Shown piece by piece: positions 1,126-7,013 of a stretch of 22,708 bases of DNA; position 1 is the first letter of the stretch; each line of letters opens with the position of its first letter. The notes under the pieces are model-generated. The model was given only the letters and a program-made list of their open reading frames with translations, was not told where the DNA came from and did not search any database. This DNA comes from a virus. The stretch covers positions 1-22,708 of the IMG/VR virus record IMGVR_UViG_3300009011_000057. The stretch is one strand, 5' to 3'. The translations under genes and the position numbers were made by a program.

Positions 1126-2013
1126 ATGTTGGGTTTCAACGAGATAGCTAAAGTTTTTTCTAGTCGCAACATTAACTCCGTTTCGGAGGGCGATTTTTCT
1201 CTTGTCACCCAAGTGGCTAAATGCTATCAAGATAGCTTTGATGATATTTTCACCGTAGGCAGTGTTTTTGATTTTTGCTATAGCATCCTGTGTAAGGAGT
1301 ATCGTAATGAGTACTATTATAAGAATGCTATTGCGAGAAAAATACTCGTCGGCAGGCACTCAGTTAGTAGTTCTACAATGTTTACTGAGTTTCGGGTTGG
1401 TACAAGTAAGGCAGATTGCGTAATAGTTAATGGTGTTTCAACATGTTACGAGATTAAAACTGACTACGATAATTTAGGTCGCTTGAGATCTCAGATAGAT
1501 TCGTATCTGAAGATTTTTGACAAGGTTAATGTGGTTGTTTCAGATAAGTATCTCAATGCAGTCTTGCACGCCGTTCCAGAAGAGGTCGGAGTTATACTGC
1601 TAAATAAGAGAGGATCTTTTAGAGAGATGCGATCGGCACAGCTTATAAATGCGCCGATTGACATTGGGGTGTTGATGCGATCCCTCCGACGTGAAGAGTA
1701 TGTGAGTATTGTCGAGTCATTGTTTGGCGTTGCGCCAGCTGTAAGTAATACTGAGATTTTTCGTGAGTGTGAACGATTGTTGATATCTGCCACTAATGAC
1801 AGAGTTCGTACGGAGTTTAGAAACGTGATTCGGCGAACGAGGGCTTTGGATAAGGATTTTATATTGTCCTTGCCCGCTTCTTTGTTGGTGGCCGGAGTTG
1901 AGTTTGGATTGACTCGCAAGGCTCGAGTCTGCCTTGTGGAAAATATGAGTTCCATTCTAAGTAAGGAAGCTGTATGTACTACCCAATTCTCAAGGGCAAA
2001 CAATTTGAACTAG
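1126..2013 (+). CDS. sce7726 family protein, PD-(D/E)XK nuclease-like
   Basis: Recognised as the sce7726 family, named from a Sorangium cellulosum locus; its biochemical role is not established. From ATG 1126 the protein has 295 residues. The centre, SKADCVIVNGVSTCYEIKTD, carries Asp97, Glu109 and Lys111 in the D-x(n)-E-x-K spacing of PD-(D/E)XK nucleases, followed by RLRSQIDSY and a beta-rich stretch (VNVVVSDKYL). The C-terminal half is helical, with no motif I can name. The start is uncertain: ATG 1126 has AGG eight bases upstream, but the frame is open further back and a TTG at 1081 overlaps the integrase stop as TTGA. The DNA is AT-rich compared with the phage genes (16 G+C in the 60 bases 1081-1140), suggesting separate acquisition. 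Its end overlaps the next gene by 40 bases. Confidence 0.8.
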   Translation: MLGFNEIAKVFSSRNINSVSEGDFSLVTQVAKCYQDSFDDIFTVGSVFDFCYSILCKEYRNEYYYKNAIARKILVGRHSVSSSTMFTEFRVGTSKADCVIVNGVSTCYEIKTDYDNLGRLRSQIDSYLKIFDKVNVVVSDKYLNAVLHAVPEEVGVILLNKRGSFREMRSAQLINAPIDIGVLMRSLRREEYVSIVESLFGVAPAVSNTEIFRECERLLISATNDRVRTEFRNVIRRTRALDKDFILSLPASLLVAGVEFGLTRKARVCLVENMSSILSKEAVCTTQFSRANNLN

Positions 2014-2903
2014 GCGCGCTAAAGGAGCTAGTTGGGCATATACCGGCGGGTAATGTGTGTCCAATTTTGGAGCCGGTTAATTTAAGCCTCGGCCCCCTAG
2101 CGACTACTATCTCTGAATTGACAACTGCAGGCATCACTTCGTGGGTGGTTATTAATCCGTCTCAAGGTGAATTCTTGAGCGGATCGGGATCGAATATTAC
2201 AGCGTCCCTGATCACACACCTTGCAACTGTAGGTAACGGCACTGGCGCATTCGTCCCATGTGTAAAAGTGCGCGATGTTACTGACGTATCGGCCATAGCA
2301 TTGTTAAGAAGCTTAACAACGCCTTTCGTAGCTTATGTTGAAGGTGCTATTAGTCCAGCTCTGAATCTGGATTTAATGCGAGCCTCTGTTGTGGCGCTGA
2401 ATCCAGAAAAAACTGACCATTCGATATGGGGTAGTCTTTCAAACGTTGTTCTTTTTCATGATGGCTTCGACAAAAAGTCAAGAAATTTGGACTATGGTCT
2501 AGAGTCGTTTTATTCTAACTATCACACCGAATACAGATCGCGTCCGAATGCTATCGGTTTTGGTGACTATACGATTCTTGGAGAGCGTTTTTCAGAAGGC
2601 GGTGGTCCAGCATTTGTTGTCACCTTGCATTTGTCTTATCTGGACCCTTCTAGGCTAAATCATATGTATGTTCGCCATTTTTCGTCGTACTCTGATAATG
2701 ACAGTCAGAGTGACCCTGGTGGTAAATTTCGTGAGGCATTAGATTTGCTTGTTGCTCATGTCTCAGCTAATTTTACAAATTTTGTTAATACTGCTGGATT
2801 GCGGGATTTTAATGCCCTCCATGCTACGCGTCACTTCCCAGGACTTGGTGTTGCGAAAAAAATATCAATTAAACATCACATTCAAACTTTGTCGGGATGG
2901 TAA
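1974..2903 (+). CDS. sce7725 family protein (beta-protein-like)
   Basis: 309 residues beginning MYYPILKGKQFELGALKEL, the signature start of the sce7725 family. Members typically lie directly beside an sce7726 gene, as here. The N-terminal pattern (P-x-L-K-G-K-x-E-x-x-AL, then PILEPV near residue 35) resembles the phage T4 beta-protein family. I see no signal peptide, membrane segment or recognised catalytic motif. The conserved blocks NAIGFGDYTILG (about residues 193-204) and YVRHFSSYSDND (about 232-243) may form the active or binding surface. The ATG lies inside the sce7726 gene (40-base overlap), which implies coupled translation and a joint function. A strong terminator follows seven bases after the stop. 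Family assignment is fairly secure; the function is unknown. Confidence 0.8.
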   Translation: MYYPILKGKQFELGALKELVGHIPAGNVCPILEPVNLSLGPLATTISELTTAGITSWVVINPSQGEFLSGSGSNITASLITHLATVGNGTGAFVPCVKVRDVTDVSAIALLRSLTTPFVAYVEGAISPALNLDLMRASVVALNPEKTDHSIWGSLSNVVLFHDGFDKKSRNLDYGLESFYSNYHTEYRSRPNAIGFGDYTILGERFSEGGGPAFVVTLHLSYLDPSRLNHMYVRHFSSYSDNDSQSDPGGKFREALDLLVAHVSANFTNFVNTAGLRDFNALHATRHFPGLGVAKKISIKHHIQTLSGW

Positions 2904-2910
2904 TTTTTTT

Positions 2911-2936
2911 GGGCATACTCTCGTATGCCCTTTTTT
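2911..2936 (+). terminator. Rho-independent terminator closing the cargo operon
   Basis: Perfect 8-bp stem GGGCATAC/GTATGCCC (2911-2918 with 2923-2930), TCTC loop, then six T (2931-2936). It acts only on rightward transcripts, because the minus-strand reading has A, not T, after the stem. Its T tract touches the stop codon of the convergent PrtN-family gene. Confidence 0.9.
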
Positions 2937-3201
2937 AGTTTCTTCCCATAAGCTTATTTTGTTCATTGGCTGCTTTTTCTCGTTGGGCGTCGTTGTATTT
3001 AGCAAGGTCTTGTATGTGGACGCCCAATGCTGCTTTTTGACTATTAGCGCCTAAACGAACTATTGGTATATCTATTTCTCCGGACATGCATTTGAGTTTG
3101 AATTTCTCAACTGTCAAATGCATGTAGTCTGCACACACTTGGCTTACTGGAATGACAGCTTGCCCACCATATTGTGCCATTAACAGGAAAAGTGTGTTCA
3201 T
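2935..3201 (-). CDS. Pyocin activator PrtN family protein (first copy)
   Basis: 88 residues starting MNTLFLLMAQYGGQAVIP, with CADYMHLTVEKF, GEIDIPIVRL and SQKAALGVHIQDLA. This is the pattern of PrtN, the transcriptional activator of pyocin genes in Pseudomonas aeruginosa, which contains a helix-turn-helix-like fold. The start at 3201 is chosen because it forms an ATGA overlap with the stop of the preceding gene. An ATG at 3213 would add only four residues. It is the last gene of the leftward early operon and runs convergent to the cargo genes. A second PrtN-like gene lies three genes upstream (4081-4401). The targets are unknown, but see the 11-base repeats at 10651-10705. Confidence 0.8.
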   Translation of the reverse strand: MNTLFLLMAQYGGQAVIPVSQVCADYMHLTVEKFKLKCMSGEIDIPIVRLGANSQKAALGVHIQDLAKYNDAQREKAANEQNKLMGRN

Positions 3202-3593
3202 GCTGCGTTCCATCGTTCACTCTCTACTAGCAGTAATCCCATGCTTGACGAATGGGTGCGCTTGTATCCCACCATAGGCTGCGCGGGCGGGCGATGCTGA
3301 GTGGTTAGCGTTGTATCAGGTGTCGCTGCCTCGCGCAGCTTTTCGTGGGGTCTAAGCATCTCAGAGCTGCTGGTAGAAGCAATAATGCCTGCCGCTGCGC
3401 AGCAGCGACTCTTTGTTTCCAGTGCATCGACGCTGGTTTCCTGGCGGAGCAAAGCGGTCGTGAATTGAGTGTTGTGCTGGTCCTTCTTCATGCCGCTTTC
3501 CTCCGAGGTTCGATAGCTAGTTGGTTCAGCATCCGCTGGTGGAGCGTAAGCTAGGCTGCGGTGGATGCCGGAGTGGATGAGGATCTCGCTCAT
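3198..3593 (-). CDS. Hypothetical protein in leftward early operon
   Basis: 131 residues that I do not recognise. The protein is polar, rich in Ser, Thr and Ala, with a Cys pair near the middle (SRCCAAAG). It has no clear membrane segment, signal or domain. The case for a real gene is the arrangement: its ATG overlaps the previous stop as ATGA (3590-3593), and its own TGA overlaps the PrtN-family start as ATGA (3198-3201). Such double four-base overlaps indicate translational coupling. An internal ATG (MKKDQHNTQ, residue 35) is an alternative start. Amino-acid composition is not typical of a folded globular protein, so some doubt remains. Confidence 0.5.
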   Translation of the reverse strand: MSEILIHSGIHRSLAYAPPADAEPTSYRTSEESGMKKDQHNTQFTTALLRQETSVDALETKSRCCAAAGIIASTSSSEMLRPHEKLREAATPDTTLTTQHRPPAQPMVGYKRTHSSSMGLLLVESERWNAA

Positions 3594-4603: not shown

Positions 4604-4841
4604 TGCCCAGCTGGTCAGCCAGCCAGCGGATGCCGGACTGGGTTACCCGGGTCGACTGGCTGTACTGCATGCCGTACTTCTCGTCGTACCAAGAGCTGTC
4701 CTTGATCCGCAGGTAGACTTTATGGCGCTTCGGGTCCGCCGGCAGGTTTCCCTTGAGCAAGCCTTTTTCGCGCATGCGGGCGATGAGCTTGGGACGCGTC
4801 AGGCCGAGATGAGCAGCCGTTTGGGCGAGGGTGCGTTCCAT
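4560..4841 (-). CDS. KilA-C / antirepressor-C-like DNA-binding protein
   Basis: 93 residues from ATG 4841, preceded by a near-perfect AAGGAGG six bases upstream; a longer frame to 4928 is not needed. The sequence RTLAQTAAHLGLTRPKLIARMRE, then GLLKGNLPADPKRHKVYL, then STRVTQSGIRWLADQLGI, matches the C-terminal domain of phage antirepressors (KilA-C/ANT): a winged-helix-like N-part followed by a second short helical unit. No BRO or KilA-N domain is present, so this is the C-domain alone. It probably acts as a small DNA-binding regulator in early infection. It overlaps the small gene downstream and follows the 196-residue gene by ten bases. Confidence 0.65.
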   Translation of the reverse strand: MERTLAQTAAHLGLTRPKLIARMREKGLLKGNLPADPKRHKVYLRIKDSSWYDEKYGMQYSQSTRVTQSGIRWLADQLGIDLPAIPADRRDVA

Positions 4842-4851
4842 GGCGTCCTCC

Positions 4852-5442
4852 TTAAGCCGCGTGTGCAGCAGGAGTGGCCGCTGCAGCAATTTGGCTGATG
4901 GACTCGCGGACCTTGCCGTAGATCTCAAGATCGGTACCGCACGCGGTAAAACACCGGGTGCGCGGGCTCTTTTTGCCTATGCTGAGAATGGCGGTGATGC
5001 AGGAGAGAGTGTGCGGGCGATGGACAGCCACGTGCAGCGGCAGATCGAAGCCCATGTCGAGGCTCAGCATGCCGCCGGTGCGGATCAACTCGAATACCCG
5101 CTGCTTGTCCTGGACGTCAAAGCGGCCGTATTGGCGATCGGCATGCGCGCGATGCACCTGGTCGCTGGTGCTGCTCGGTTCAAGCGGGCCGTTGGCAATC
5201 TCTTCGATGAAGTCGGCCAGCTTGAGGTGCATCTTCTTGTCGTTCGGCAGAGTCAGCGTGTGGCGTTCACTGCCCAGCTCGATGACAAAAGTGCTTTCCA
5301 ATGTGCCGCGTTCGGCCTTTAGACGGAATGCCAGGCACTCGCGCTTCGGTGCTGTACGCAGGACGTGGTTGAAGGTCTCGGTCAGATTGACCTGGGCATT
5401 GAGCAACTGCAGGGTGCGGTTGTCGATCTTGTACTTGATCAT
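4852..5442 (-). CDS. Hypothetical phage early protein
   Basis: 196 residues, unrecognised. The N-terminal half (TLQLLNAQVNLTETFNHVLR, then TFVIELGSERHTLTLPNDKK) looks like a mixed alpha/beta fold. The middle contains YGRFDVQDKQRVFELIRTGG and the C-terminus is Ala-rich. No transmembrane segment or catalytic motif is evident. GGAGGG lies about ten bases before ATG 5442. The start overlaps the stop of the upstream 59-residue ORF as ATGA, and the stop is ten bases from the KilA-C-like gene, so it is firmly part of the leftward operon. Confidence 0.75.
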   Translation of the reverse strand: MIKYKIDNRTLQLLNAQVNLTETFNHVLRTAPKRECLAFRLKAERGTLESTFVIELGSERHTLTLPNDKKMHLKLADFIEEIANGPLEPSSTSDQVHRAHADRQYGRFDVQDKQRVFELIRTGGMLSLDMGFDLPLHVAVHRPHTLSCITAILSIGKKSPRTRCFTACGTDLEIYGKVRESISQIAAAATPAAHAA

Positions 5443-5618
5443 GCCGCGTGCCCTCCGCCGTTCGGATCGACAGGAGAGGGCTGGCAGGACTTGGCGACAA
5501 GCTTGGGTTTGCAGTTATGAATGACGACCAGGCAGCCCGTGGCGAGCTGCAGCTGCTCGATCATTTTTTTGTTGCTGATGCACGCCGGGTGAACGTGGAG
5601 GGTAGCGCTAGGTAGCAT
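5439..5618 (-). CDS. 59-residue first gene of the leftward operon
   Basis: Short frame MLPSATLHVHPACISNKK...NGGGHAA, 59 residues. It begins about 30 bases after the predicted PL start point and ends with an ATGA overlap (5439-5442) with the next gene. This position and coupling argue that it is translated. It contains Cys14, Cys29 and Cys36 and a hydrophobic segment CLVVIH, too short for a membrane helix. The ribosome site is weak (GAGG about ten bases upstream). I recognise no domain; function unknown. Confidence 0.6.
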   Translation of the reverse strand: MLPSATLHVHPACISNKKMIEQLQLATGCLVVIHNCKPKLVAKSCQPSPVDPNGGGHAA

Positions 5619-5653
5619 GGGTGAAGCCTCGCTCTATGGTGGAGAGTGAGGCA

Positions 5654-5681
5654 ATATTAACCCTAAAGGTTATTTGGTCAA
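5654..5681 (-). promoter_or_regulatory. PL-like early promoter
   Basis: On the minus strand, TTGACC (5681-5676) is followed after 16 bases by TAATAT (5659-5654). The operator palindrome at 5657-5672 fills the spacer and part of the -10, so a bound repressor would block polymerase. It drives the leftward operon, whose first ATG is at 5618. This is a prediction from consensus only. Confidence 0.6.
5657..5672. promoter_or_regulatory. Left operator 1 of the phage repressor
   Basis: TTAACCCTAAAGGTTA, an imperfect palindrome with TAACC/GGTTA half-sites. It matches the sites in the cI-cro gap and overlaps the PL-like promoter. It is likely bound by the repressor encoded at 5708-6355 and perhaps by Cro. 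Confidence 0.7.
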
Positions 5682-5688
5682 GAAAAAG

Positions 5689-5704
5689 TAACCTTTGGGG
5701 TTAA
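5689..5704. promoter_or_regulatory. Left operator 2 of the phage repressor
   Basis: TAACCTTTGGGGTTAA. Its reverse complement differs from left operator 1 by one base. It lies just upstream of the PL -35 box and four bases from the repressor stop codon. The centre-to-centre distance to operator 1 is 32 bases, about three helical turns, which would suit cooperative binding. Confidence 0.7.
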
Positions 5705-5707
5705 TTT

Positions 5708-6355
5708 TTAAAGGTCGGAAATTTTCCACCTTGCTCGGCCGCATATGTTCCATTCTTCAGTCATTCGGATTATGCGTTCCGGCCAATCAGGATTGACTGC
5801 ATAGAGATAACGTTCGCTACCCTCTTGTCTGAGTTGCTTGAGTGTTGCTGCTTCATCTCTAACTCGCTTCGCTGCAACAAAATGGCCTGGTAAAGCTTCG
5901 AGGGATGGATCGATCACGATCTTGTCACCCTCCATAAACTTTGGCTCCATGCTCACACCTTCAACTCTAAGAATGAATGCGCTTGGGCCCACTGGACCCG
6001 GAGCATCAATCCATTCCTCCGCATCTCTTGGATCAAAACTCCCTTGCCCCTCGCACCATGAACCCGCAGCAATGGAGCCTATAACGGGAAGCTTACGTCC
6101 TGTATGGCTTAGCACAGTAGCGTTATTGAACTCACCAACACCGTATGGCATGTCGAGGTAACCCTCGTGCAAGTTCAGAGCTTTTTCGAGCTCGCGTGCA
6201 ATCTGGTCACCAATCCCTTTCGTAGGATTCTTCCCTCCGAAAGCACTGACCTGCGCAGGCGCTTTACCTAGGCGCTCAGCTACGTCCGTCAAGCGAAGAT
6301 TCCGCTCAGCGATGATTCGTCGAAAGTTGTGAAGCCGGGTATCTGAAATTTTCAT
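5708..6355 (-). CDS. cI: CI/LexA-like phage repressor (HTH + S24 peptidase)
   Basis: 215 residues. The N-terminal helix-turn-helix (about 14-60: RIIAERNLRLTDVAERLGKA...QVSAFGG) should bind the TAACC/GGTTA operators. The C-terminal S24 domain has the Ala97-Gly98 autocleavage site (SIAAGSW), Ser135 (VEGVSMEPK) and Lys173 (ATLKQL) as the catalytic pair. It maintains lysogeny and should self-cleave when RecA is activated by DNA damage, as in LexA, CI and PrtR. It is transcribed leftward from the cI-cro gap. I see no clear ribosome site before its ATG. Left operators lie immediately after its stop. Confidence 0.93.
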   Translation of the reverse strand: MKISDTRLHNFRRIIAERNLRLTDVAERLGKAPAQVSAFGGKNPTKGIGDQIARELEKALNLHEGYLDMPYGVGEFNNATVLSHTGRKLPVIGSIAAGSWCEGQGSFDPRDAEEWIDAPGPVGPSAFILRVEGVSMEPKFMEGDKIVIDPSLEALPGHFVAAKRVRDEAATLKQLRQEGSERYLYAVNPDWPERIIRMTEEWNICGRARWKISDL

Positions 6356-6374
6356 GTGATGATTTTGGCTTCAT

Positions 6375-6389
6375 TAACCTTTGAGGTGA
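6375..6389. promoter_or_regulatory. Right operator proximal to the repressor gene
   Basis: TAACCTTTGAGGTGA. One half-site is perfect and the other has one change (TCACC for TAACC). It lies 20 bases before the repressor start, so it may autoregulate repressor transcription. Confidence 0.6.
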
Positions 6390-6404
6390 ATGTCTCCACA
6401 GGTA

Positions 6405-6433
6405 TTGCAAAAAATAACCTCAAAGGTTAATTT
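6405..6433 (+). promoter_or_regulatory. PR-like early promoter
   Basis: TTGCAA (6405-6410), 17-base spacer, TAATTT (6428-6433). The spacer holds the operator at 6415-6429, the same geometry as at PL. It drives cro and the replication genes. The -10 match is weak, so exact borders are uncertain. Confidence 0.5.
6415..6429. promoter_or_regulatory. Right operator overlapping PR
   Basis: TAACCTCAAAGGTTA, the most symmetric of the four operators: six-base half-sites TAACCT/AGGTTA around a three-base centre. It sits between the PR -35 and -10 boxes. Confidence 0.7.
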
Positions 6434-6453
6434 GGCGCTCGGAGGATTACTCA

Positions 6454-6687
6454 ATGAACCTGCGTGATTACATCAGCAACATGGATAAGGAAAAACTAAA
6501 GGCCTATGCGAAGCGCTGCCGTATAGCTGATAGCTACCTTCGCTTACACGTGAAATATGCGAGCAAAGATCCAAGCGTTTCTCTAATCAAGTCATTGGCC
6601 CGCGAAAGTGATGGCTGCGTGACGATCTCAGAAGTACTTGAACACTTTGGGATCATGGACGATGTCTCGCCGAGCGAAGCAGCATAG
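6454..6687 (+). CDS. cro: Cro-like regulator
   Basis: 77 residues, small and helical: LRDYISNMDKEKLKAYAKRC, then SYLRLHVKYASKDPSVSLIK and VTISEVLEHFG. The position, divergent from the repressor across shared operators, and the size make it the Cro equivalent. The helix-turn-helix resembles the YdaS/Cro type rather than lambda Cro itself. GGAGG lies nine bases before the ATG. It should oppose the repressor and turn down early transcription during lytic growth. The role is assigned mainly from context. Confidence 0.75.
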   Translation: MNLRDYISNMDKEKLKAYAKRCRIADSYLRLHVKYASKDPSVSLIKSLARESDGCVTISEVLEHFGIMDDVSPSEAA

Positions 6688-6691
6688 TTAG

Positions 6692-6715
6692 AAAAAAGGC
6701 GACCCAAAGGTCGCC
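6692..6715 (-). terminator. Terminator-like hairpin facing leftward, just after cro
   Basis: Perfect 7-bp stem GGCGACC/GGTCGCC (6698-6704 with 6709-6715), with six A before it on the plus strand. Read on the minus strand this is a stem followed by six T, so it would stop transcripts running left towards cro and the operators. For rightward transcripts it is a hairpin without a T tract. Confidence 0.6.
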
Positions 6716-6780
6716 CAGTTCCTCCCGACACGCACCACCACAGCGCTGTCGGGCCGCGTTAGGAGTAGGGGGCAAACCAA

Positions 6781-6873
6781 ATGCAAACCACCCACTCTTC
6801 TCGCGTTTTCCAAGGCTCGGAAGCTTTGGTGTTGCTGCCTTTTCCACCACAGAGCTGGCAGCTGTTGCGCTAG
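6781..6873 (+). CDS. Possible 30-residue small protein
   Basis: ATG frame MQTTHSSRVFQGSEALVLLP and onward to WQLLR, 30 residues. GGGGG lies about nine bases upstream. The content (a hydrophobic VLLPFPP stretch) is protein-like, but length alone gives little support. It lies in the PR transcript between cro and cII and overlaps a CGGA-loop hairpin. Confidence 0.3.
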   Translation: MQTTHSSRVFQGSEALVLLPFPPQSWQLLR

Positions 6874-6875
6874 GG

Positions 6876-7013
6876 GTGAACAACGGATTGTTCGCCCCAG
6901 CACGGTGCCGGTGTTGGTCTATGAAACCTCGCCGGCGTTTGGGCACTTACACGCCACACGACAAATGTACCACCACTCCCTGTCGTGCGGCACTGGCAAC
7001 ATTCAAGGATTAA
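6876..7013 (+). CDS. Possible 45-residue basic, Cys-containing small protein
   Basis: GTG frame NNGLFAPARCRCWSMKPRRR and on to LATFKD, 45 residues, starting two bases after the stop of the 30-residue ORF and ending four bases before the cII ATG. It could be translated by reinitiation, since there is no room for its own ribosome site. Cys residues (CRC, then two more) and a basic run are visible. The same bases hold the inverted repeats described for this spacer, so a non-coding explanation is equally possible. Confidence 0.3.
   Translation: MNNGLFAPARCRCWSMKPRRRLGTYTPHDKCTTTPCRAALATFKD

Follow-up and report, generated by a model that had tools for sequence, protein, structure and literature searches.

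A prophage-borne sce7726-sce7725 gene pair related to P4 gop-beta-cII is a candidate anti-phage module

The gop-beta-cII system of satellite phage P4 protects Escherichia coli against the phages lambda and P1, and the cited portion of the corresponding study describes gop as toxic without beta and calls gop, beta, and cII non-essential (Rousset et al., 2022, PMC9122126). The cII gene is located directly after the integrase gene of P4, and its product carries the RefSeq label 'sce7726 family protein'. A second described system, PD-lambda-2, contains a third component that matches the beta family, and P4 beta matches the PD-Lambda-2_C model with an E-value (E) of 8e-14. This component, PD-lambda-2C, is necessary for defence against lambda-vir, not for toxin neutralization (Vassallo et al., 2022, PMC9519451). 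Two tested defence systems therefore include a member of the beta family, for which more than one role is possible. Here, we analyzed two overlapping genes of the sce7726 and sce7725 families, which follow the integrase gene on the IMG/VR virus record IMGVR_UViG_3300009011_000057. The whole record, 22,708 bases long, is referred to as the window. We assign a probability of about 0.55 to the reading that the pair is a toxin-free, two-gene, nuclease-based anti-phage module of the group formed by sce7726/cII and sce7725/beta proteins.

A first-pass annotation, made from the nucleotide sequence, had described two AT-rich genes that overlap by 40 bases, share one terminator, and lie next to the integrase gene as candidate defence or exclusion cargo of a prophage. 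All of these structural features were found again. Both reading frames are open and co-directional on the + strand, and the GC content of the pair is 42.8% compared to 58.7% for the remaining window. The GC content at third codon positions is 0.41 and 0.37 in the two genes, respectively, versus about 0.7 in the phage structural genes. The elements of the pair are as follows.

1126-2013, + strand: sce7726 family protein of 295 amino acids (aa), predicted PD-(D/E)XK nuclease and P4 cII homologue (NF033832, 182 bits; ATG start)
1309-1494, + strand: active-site codons E62 (1309), D97 (1414), E109 (1450), K111 (1456), and Q123 (1492)
1963-1967, + strand: AAGGA, a Shine-Dalgarno-like motif in the sequence, inside sce7726 and 6 nucleotides (nt) ahead of the sce7725 start
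1974-2013, + strand: 40-nt gene overlap, kept in near relatives
1974-2903, + strand: sce7725 family protein of 309 aa, predicted TIM barrel and distant P4 beta relative (NF033831, 239 bits; ATG start)
2911-2936, + strand: terminator-like hairpin GGGCATAC-TCTC-GTATGCCC, followed by TTTTTT; the hairpin itself spans 2911-2930

The AAGGA motif within sce7726 would fit a coupled translation of sce7725. The promoter scan gave no sigma-70-like site directly ahead of the pair, and the number of such sites in the region was not above chance.

The assignment of the first gene is clear, with a score of 182.2 bits for the NCBIfam model NF033832 (cut-off 70; E 9e-54). Its sole PADLOC match was 'cll' (E 2e-21), the model for P4 cII, with which P4 cII itself scores 376 bits. 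The window protein was also related to P4 cII in direct comparisons (tblastn, E 6e-7; BLAST, E 9e-14 and 25% identity). The AlphaFold2 model reached a predicted local distance difference test (pLDDT) value of 95.4 and was aligned by VIA-align to 3dnx, a PD-(D/E)XK superfamily protein, with Z 10.3 over 143 residues and a root mean square deviation of 5.2. Further matches of the model were PaqCI (Z 9.2) and Can2 (Z 7.8). Thus, the model places sce7726 in the PD-(D/E)XK nuclease fold, and nuclease activity is predicted. The D-x(11)-E-x-K motif seen in the first-pass annotation corresponds to D97-x(11)-E109-x-K111. These residues and Q123 are identical in 106 of 106 distinct sce7726 relatives, 15 of which derive from pairs without the RES gene described below and 28 from loci without sce7725. 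At position E62, 105 of them have E or D and one has a gap. Q123 and Y127 recall the QxxxY motif found in RecB-like nucleases. Profile searches of the PDB with both families revealed no solved relative of sce7726 or sce7725.

The second gene product scored 239.3 bits with the NCBIfam model NF033831 (cut-off 60; E 8e-71). According to its AlphaFold2 model (pLDDT 92.6), it adopts a TIM barrel. It matched many TIM barrels alike, with Z values of about 10-11, and none stood out, so that its enzyme family cannot be named. One viral model, an uncharacterized protein of Gordonia phage Powerball, was matched with E 2.5e-10. The first-pass annotation had pointed to the beta-protein family of phage T4. 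The kinship holds at the level of profiles; the phage in question is, however, P4, and the Pfam match of the single protein is weak and confined to the N-terminus. A direct BLAST comparison of sce7725 with P4 beta gave nothing (E 0.54), and only profiles reveal the link. Comparison of the two family profiles with hhalign yielded a probability of 96.8% (E 2.4e-10) over 297 columns, end to end, and 15 of 62 sce7725 proteins independently matched PF14350, the best with E 2.5e-7. These profile comparisons support the assignment of sce7725 as a distant homologue of P4 beta. At phage loci that have sce7726 and lack sce7725, the adjacent gene frequently encodes a Beta_protein and is convergent, like that of P4. 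PF14350 was matched by 14 of 17 chosen partners from such loci, for example that of Pasteurella phage Pmp11. Two of the 17 partners (L117-L149, P4 and Pmp11 included) match Radical_SAM (PF04055, best E 1.6e-5), which may point to another kind of partner. At L143:6669-8298, an IrrE/M78 peptidase gene precedes a Beta_protein-type gene convergent to sce7726, which recalls the peptidase of PD-lambda-2.

The window pair resembles gop-beta-cII in that an sce7726 family gene directly 3' of the integrase gene is accompanied by a beta homologue, albeit a distant one, and in that the genes belong to the variable cargo of an element related to phages. In contrast to P4, gop is absent from the slot, the sce7725 protein falls below the Beta_protein cut-off, and the genes are co-directional and overlapping, whereas beta-gop is convergent to cII. 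Given the missing gop and the different layout, we do not regard the window pair as a member of gop-beta-cII, but as a variant of that kind. PD-lambda-2 shares the beta family with the pair and differs in that it lacks an sce7726 protein and otherwise consists of HigB-like and Xre-peptidase proteins.

A further related arrangement is an operon of sce7726, sce7725, and a RES gene, which shares both families, their order, and their tight spacing with the window. In 104 loci, sce7726 is located directly ahead of sce7725 on the same strand, in 102 of them within 60 nt. Deviations were seen in 17 Levilactobacillus sequences, where a different gene takes this position, and in broken or truncated loci. 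A relative of a protein of ~340 aa is encoded directly 3' of sce7725 in 81 loci, with a gap of at most 17 nt where the genes are intact. All five of these proteins that were tested matched RES (PF08808; E 3e-12 to 1e-17), two of them also HEPN_RES_NTD1. Across 75 copies, 36 columns reach a conservation of at least 95%, two CxxC pairs among them. RES toxins of RES-Xre modules degrade nicotinamide adenine dinucleotide (NAD+), as stated in the cited part of PMC9503650 with reference to Skjerning et al. (2019). On plasmids of Rhizobium, Moraxella, and Shinella, the trio is annotated by NCBI as sce7726, sce7725, and 'RES family NAD+ phosphorylase'. A mobile element of Pseudomonas aeruginosa with the three families has been mentioned in passing (PMC9394441), and a search of the open-licence literature gave no work on the function of sce7725/sce7726 or the RES trio. 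PADLOC 2.0 gave no match for the second and third proteins of the operon. Decayed copies of the trio, with genes split into several frames, were observed at L008:4477-6755 and L032:7145-9898.

This usual third gene, which is toxin-like, is absent from the window and had been overlooked by the first-pass annotation. Together with the correction to P4, it constitutes our main addition to that annotation. A third gene would not fit into the slot either, as some 30 nt lie between sce7725 and the next gene. In the sce7725 tree, the window forms a RES-less group with L005, L007, L099, and L100 (support 94, unstarred). The sister sequence L150, whose sce7725 is 47% identical, retains RES. Within this group of five, identity has fallen to about 45%, and the genes are still intact. 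Comparison of the window with L005 and L007, at synonymous divergences (dS) of 0.5-0.8, yielded ratios of nonsynonymous to synonymous substitution rates (dN/dS) of 0.08 for sce7726 and 0.09-0.13 for sce7725, close to the 0.064 of the integrase gene. Both genes of the pair are under purifying selection and are not decaying.

The position of the pair was evaluated in related phages. The genes of the window form the set of a temperate phage, comprising integrase, S24 repressor, primase/VapE helicase, terminase, portal, and head protein, and the record looks like a partial prophage. Since the primase is 63% identical to primases of P. aeruginosa phages, the host is likely a Pseudomonas. The slot that holds the pair and its flanking genes are as follows.

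2-1084, + strand: tyrosine integrase, truncated at its N-terminus by the start of the window (PF00589, E 1.4e-18; phrog_1 integrase)
1085-2934, no strand assigned: cargo slot from the integrase gene to the PrtN-like gene (364-4779 bp in 78 sibling loci)
2935-3213, - strand: PrtN-like/excisionase-like gene that closes the slot, convergent to the pair (PF11112, E 9e-25; phrog_1300 excisionase)

As siblings we used the best 80 viral relatives of the integrase, which are 77-93% identical (L174-L253). A PrtN-like gene on the opposite strand follows the integrase gene at 78 of the 80 loci, and the GC content of the slot is below that of the phage's own integrase gene in all 78 (median 0.44 versus 0.57). 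Clustering of the slot contents resulted in 40 cargo types at the 80 loci, many of which have no assigned function. The window-type pair occupies the slot in L174 (the L007 contig) and L197 (the L100 contig) only. PADLOC matches among the sibling cargo comprised MTase_II (type II methyltransferases), Septu PtuA, PARIS AriA, PifA, and PD-Lambda-5_B, and Pfam matches comprised KAP, GmrSD_N, Mrr, Z1, and DndB; these matches were collected without control intervals or a count of the share of matching types, and PADLOC uses broad models for ATPases and methyltransferases. By its gene content, the integrase-PrtN interval is a variable, exchangeable cargo hotspot with several occupants that match known defence families. 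The arrangement is similar to the P2/P4 defence hotspots (Rousset et al., 2022), where short, exchangeable defence cargo is found at a fixed prophage place, and differs from them in that the slot lies between integrase and PrtN-like genes of another, Pseudomonas-type prophage family. A further observation concerns L005, where positions 4747-6963 match the window only at 717-2933, a stretch that starts in the middle of the integrase gene and closes with the pair (87% nucleotide identity), as if the 3' half of the integrase gene and the cargo had moved jointly into a different element.

Relatives also occur on plasmids, on elements resembling integrative and conjugative elements (ICEs), and on chromosomal islands, and the two families are shared across Pseudomonadota, Bacteroidota, Bacillota, and others. 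The pair was present in 4 of 369 gammaproteobacterial genomes, one of which was the search centre, and a relative of the trio in 18 of 5,426 E. coli genomes. Three of these 18 were examined, and the neighbours of the trio were BREX, AbiE, and KwaB-like genes in the first, type I restriction-modification and TIR-caspase genes in the second, and reverse transcriptase and TIR-caspase genes in the third. In each of these three genomes, the sce7726-sce7725-RES operon is situated in a defence island. In E. coli UTME-9 (L269:11678-12702), where BREX, AbiE, and KwaB-like genes are near, the RES gene is annotated as frameshifted, and sce7726 and sce7725 are intact. None of the counter-evidence that the first-pass annotation had named and that could be evaluated here was observed: the nuclease residues are invariant, and the pair occurs rarely and patchily. 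An exception to the latter is Levilactobacillus, where 17 sequences (L074-L098) contain a chromosomal sce7725 preceded by a 230-aa gene, which has a PD-(D/E)XK-like D..ELK motif, and a helicase gene, in a synteny that is conserved, unlike that of mobile cargo. Homology of the 230-aa gene to sce7726 could not be shown (hhalign, 2.8%). Overall, the P4 cII homology, the kinship to beta, the slot contents of the siblings, and the E. coli islands strengthen the original guess of prophage-borne defence cargo.

The reading as a defence module draws on homology, the modelled fold, the invariant catalytic residues, the gene order with its overlap, purifying selection, and the defence genes in the slots of siblings. 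In the wider group, a PD-(D/E)XK protein (sce7726/cII) is combined with a TIM-barrel protein (sce7725/beta), often with an added toxin, which is RES in most relatives and gop in P4. In the three-gene form, the pair would sense infection and restrain the RES enzyme until a phage arrives, whereupon the released enzyme would destroy NAD+ and the infected cell would stop. In the window, the two proteins may form a complex in which sce7725 binds an infection cue, as a trigger, or positions the substrate, and sce7726 would then cleave phage nucleic acid. The lysogen would resist other phages without suicide, and a toxin, where present, would add abortive infection.

Several points weigh against this reading. 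The open-licence literature that we searched contains no phage assay of any sce7726-sce7725 pair. In P4, gop belongs to the tested unit, and protection by beta-cII without gop is not stated in the cited portion of the study (PMC9122126). Most relatives carry RES, so the toxin may be required for the ancestral function. The window sce7725 did not reach the gathering score of Beta_protein PF14350 (15.4 bits at residues 2-33; 27 bits required) and had no significant PADLOC match. Finally, R7 and K296 of sce7725 are 100% and R17 is 95% conserved in 64 RES-bearing sequences, and all three are variable in RES-less ones. They are possible toxin contact sites, and their variability fits the loss of such a contact and is not informative on a new function.

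The strongest rival, although unlikely in our view, is an antidote role, in which the prophage keeps the pair so that sce7725 neutralizes the RES toxins of trios in the host or in competitors and spares the phage from abortive infection. The lack of RES in the window would agree with this, as would the at least five changes of RES presence or absence required on the sce7725 tree and the high share of phage contigs among RES-less rows (10 of 13, versus 9 of 64 others; Fisher p 1.6e-5, uncorrected). However, the association with phage origin is confounded by collection and not significant once kinship is taken into account (5 independent pairs). In PD-lambda-2, the antitoxin is not the beta relative, and the antidote role would leave the invariant nuclease residues in RES-less pairs unexplained. 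Somewhat less probable still is a split system, in which the pair works only with RES or another toxin encoded elsewhere in the phage or host. The three-gene form dominates, and a further effector could be encoded in the part that the window, apparently an incomplete prophage, does not contain. Against this stand the lack of room for a third gene in the slot and the absence of any RES match in the window and in the records of L174, L197, L005, and L099, which are possibly fragments.

A role of the pair in integration, excision, or lysogeny is improbable. It is suggested by the position between the integrase and excisionase-like genes and by the name cII of the P4 gene. However, the siblings hold 40 cargo types next to closely related integrases, so the phage cycle does not depend on any one of them; in addition, relatives reside on plasmids, ICE-like elements, and chromosomal islands, and the P4 genes are called non-essential in the cited portion of PMC9122126. 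Least probable is a decaying remnant of the three-gene operon after toxin loss, which the presence of RES in L150 and its frameshift in UTME-9 might suggest, and which is disfavoured by two intact frames, dN/dS values of 0.08-0.13, and the intact genes of the diverged RES-less sequences.

Taken further, sce7726/cII and sce7725/beta may represent a common sensing and nuclease core that spans several phyla and is combined with variable toxins (RES, gop, or none). The RES form would then be an unrecognized, widespread abortive-infection system, and the toxin-free form would have been kept by phages more than once, defending without killing the host. This wider view is tentative, and we would bet slightly against it as a whole. 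The comparison ties two 'uncharacterised' families to gop-beta-cII, a proven, mechanistically unexplained defence system, and predicts a logic for it: a fixed core of nuclease and TIM barrel with an exchangeable toxin. The natural RES-bearing and RES-less forms would offer a direct route to the role of the core itself, and the integrase-PrtN interval of this prophage family may serve as a source of candidate defence genes.
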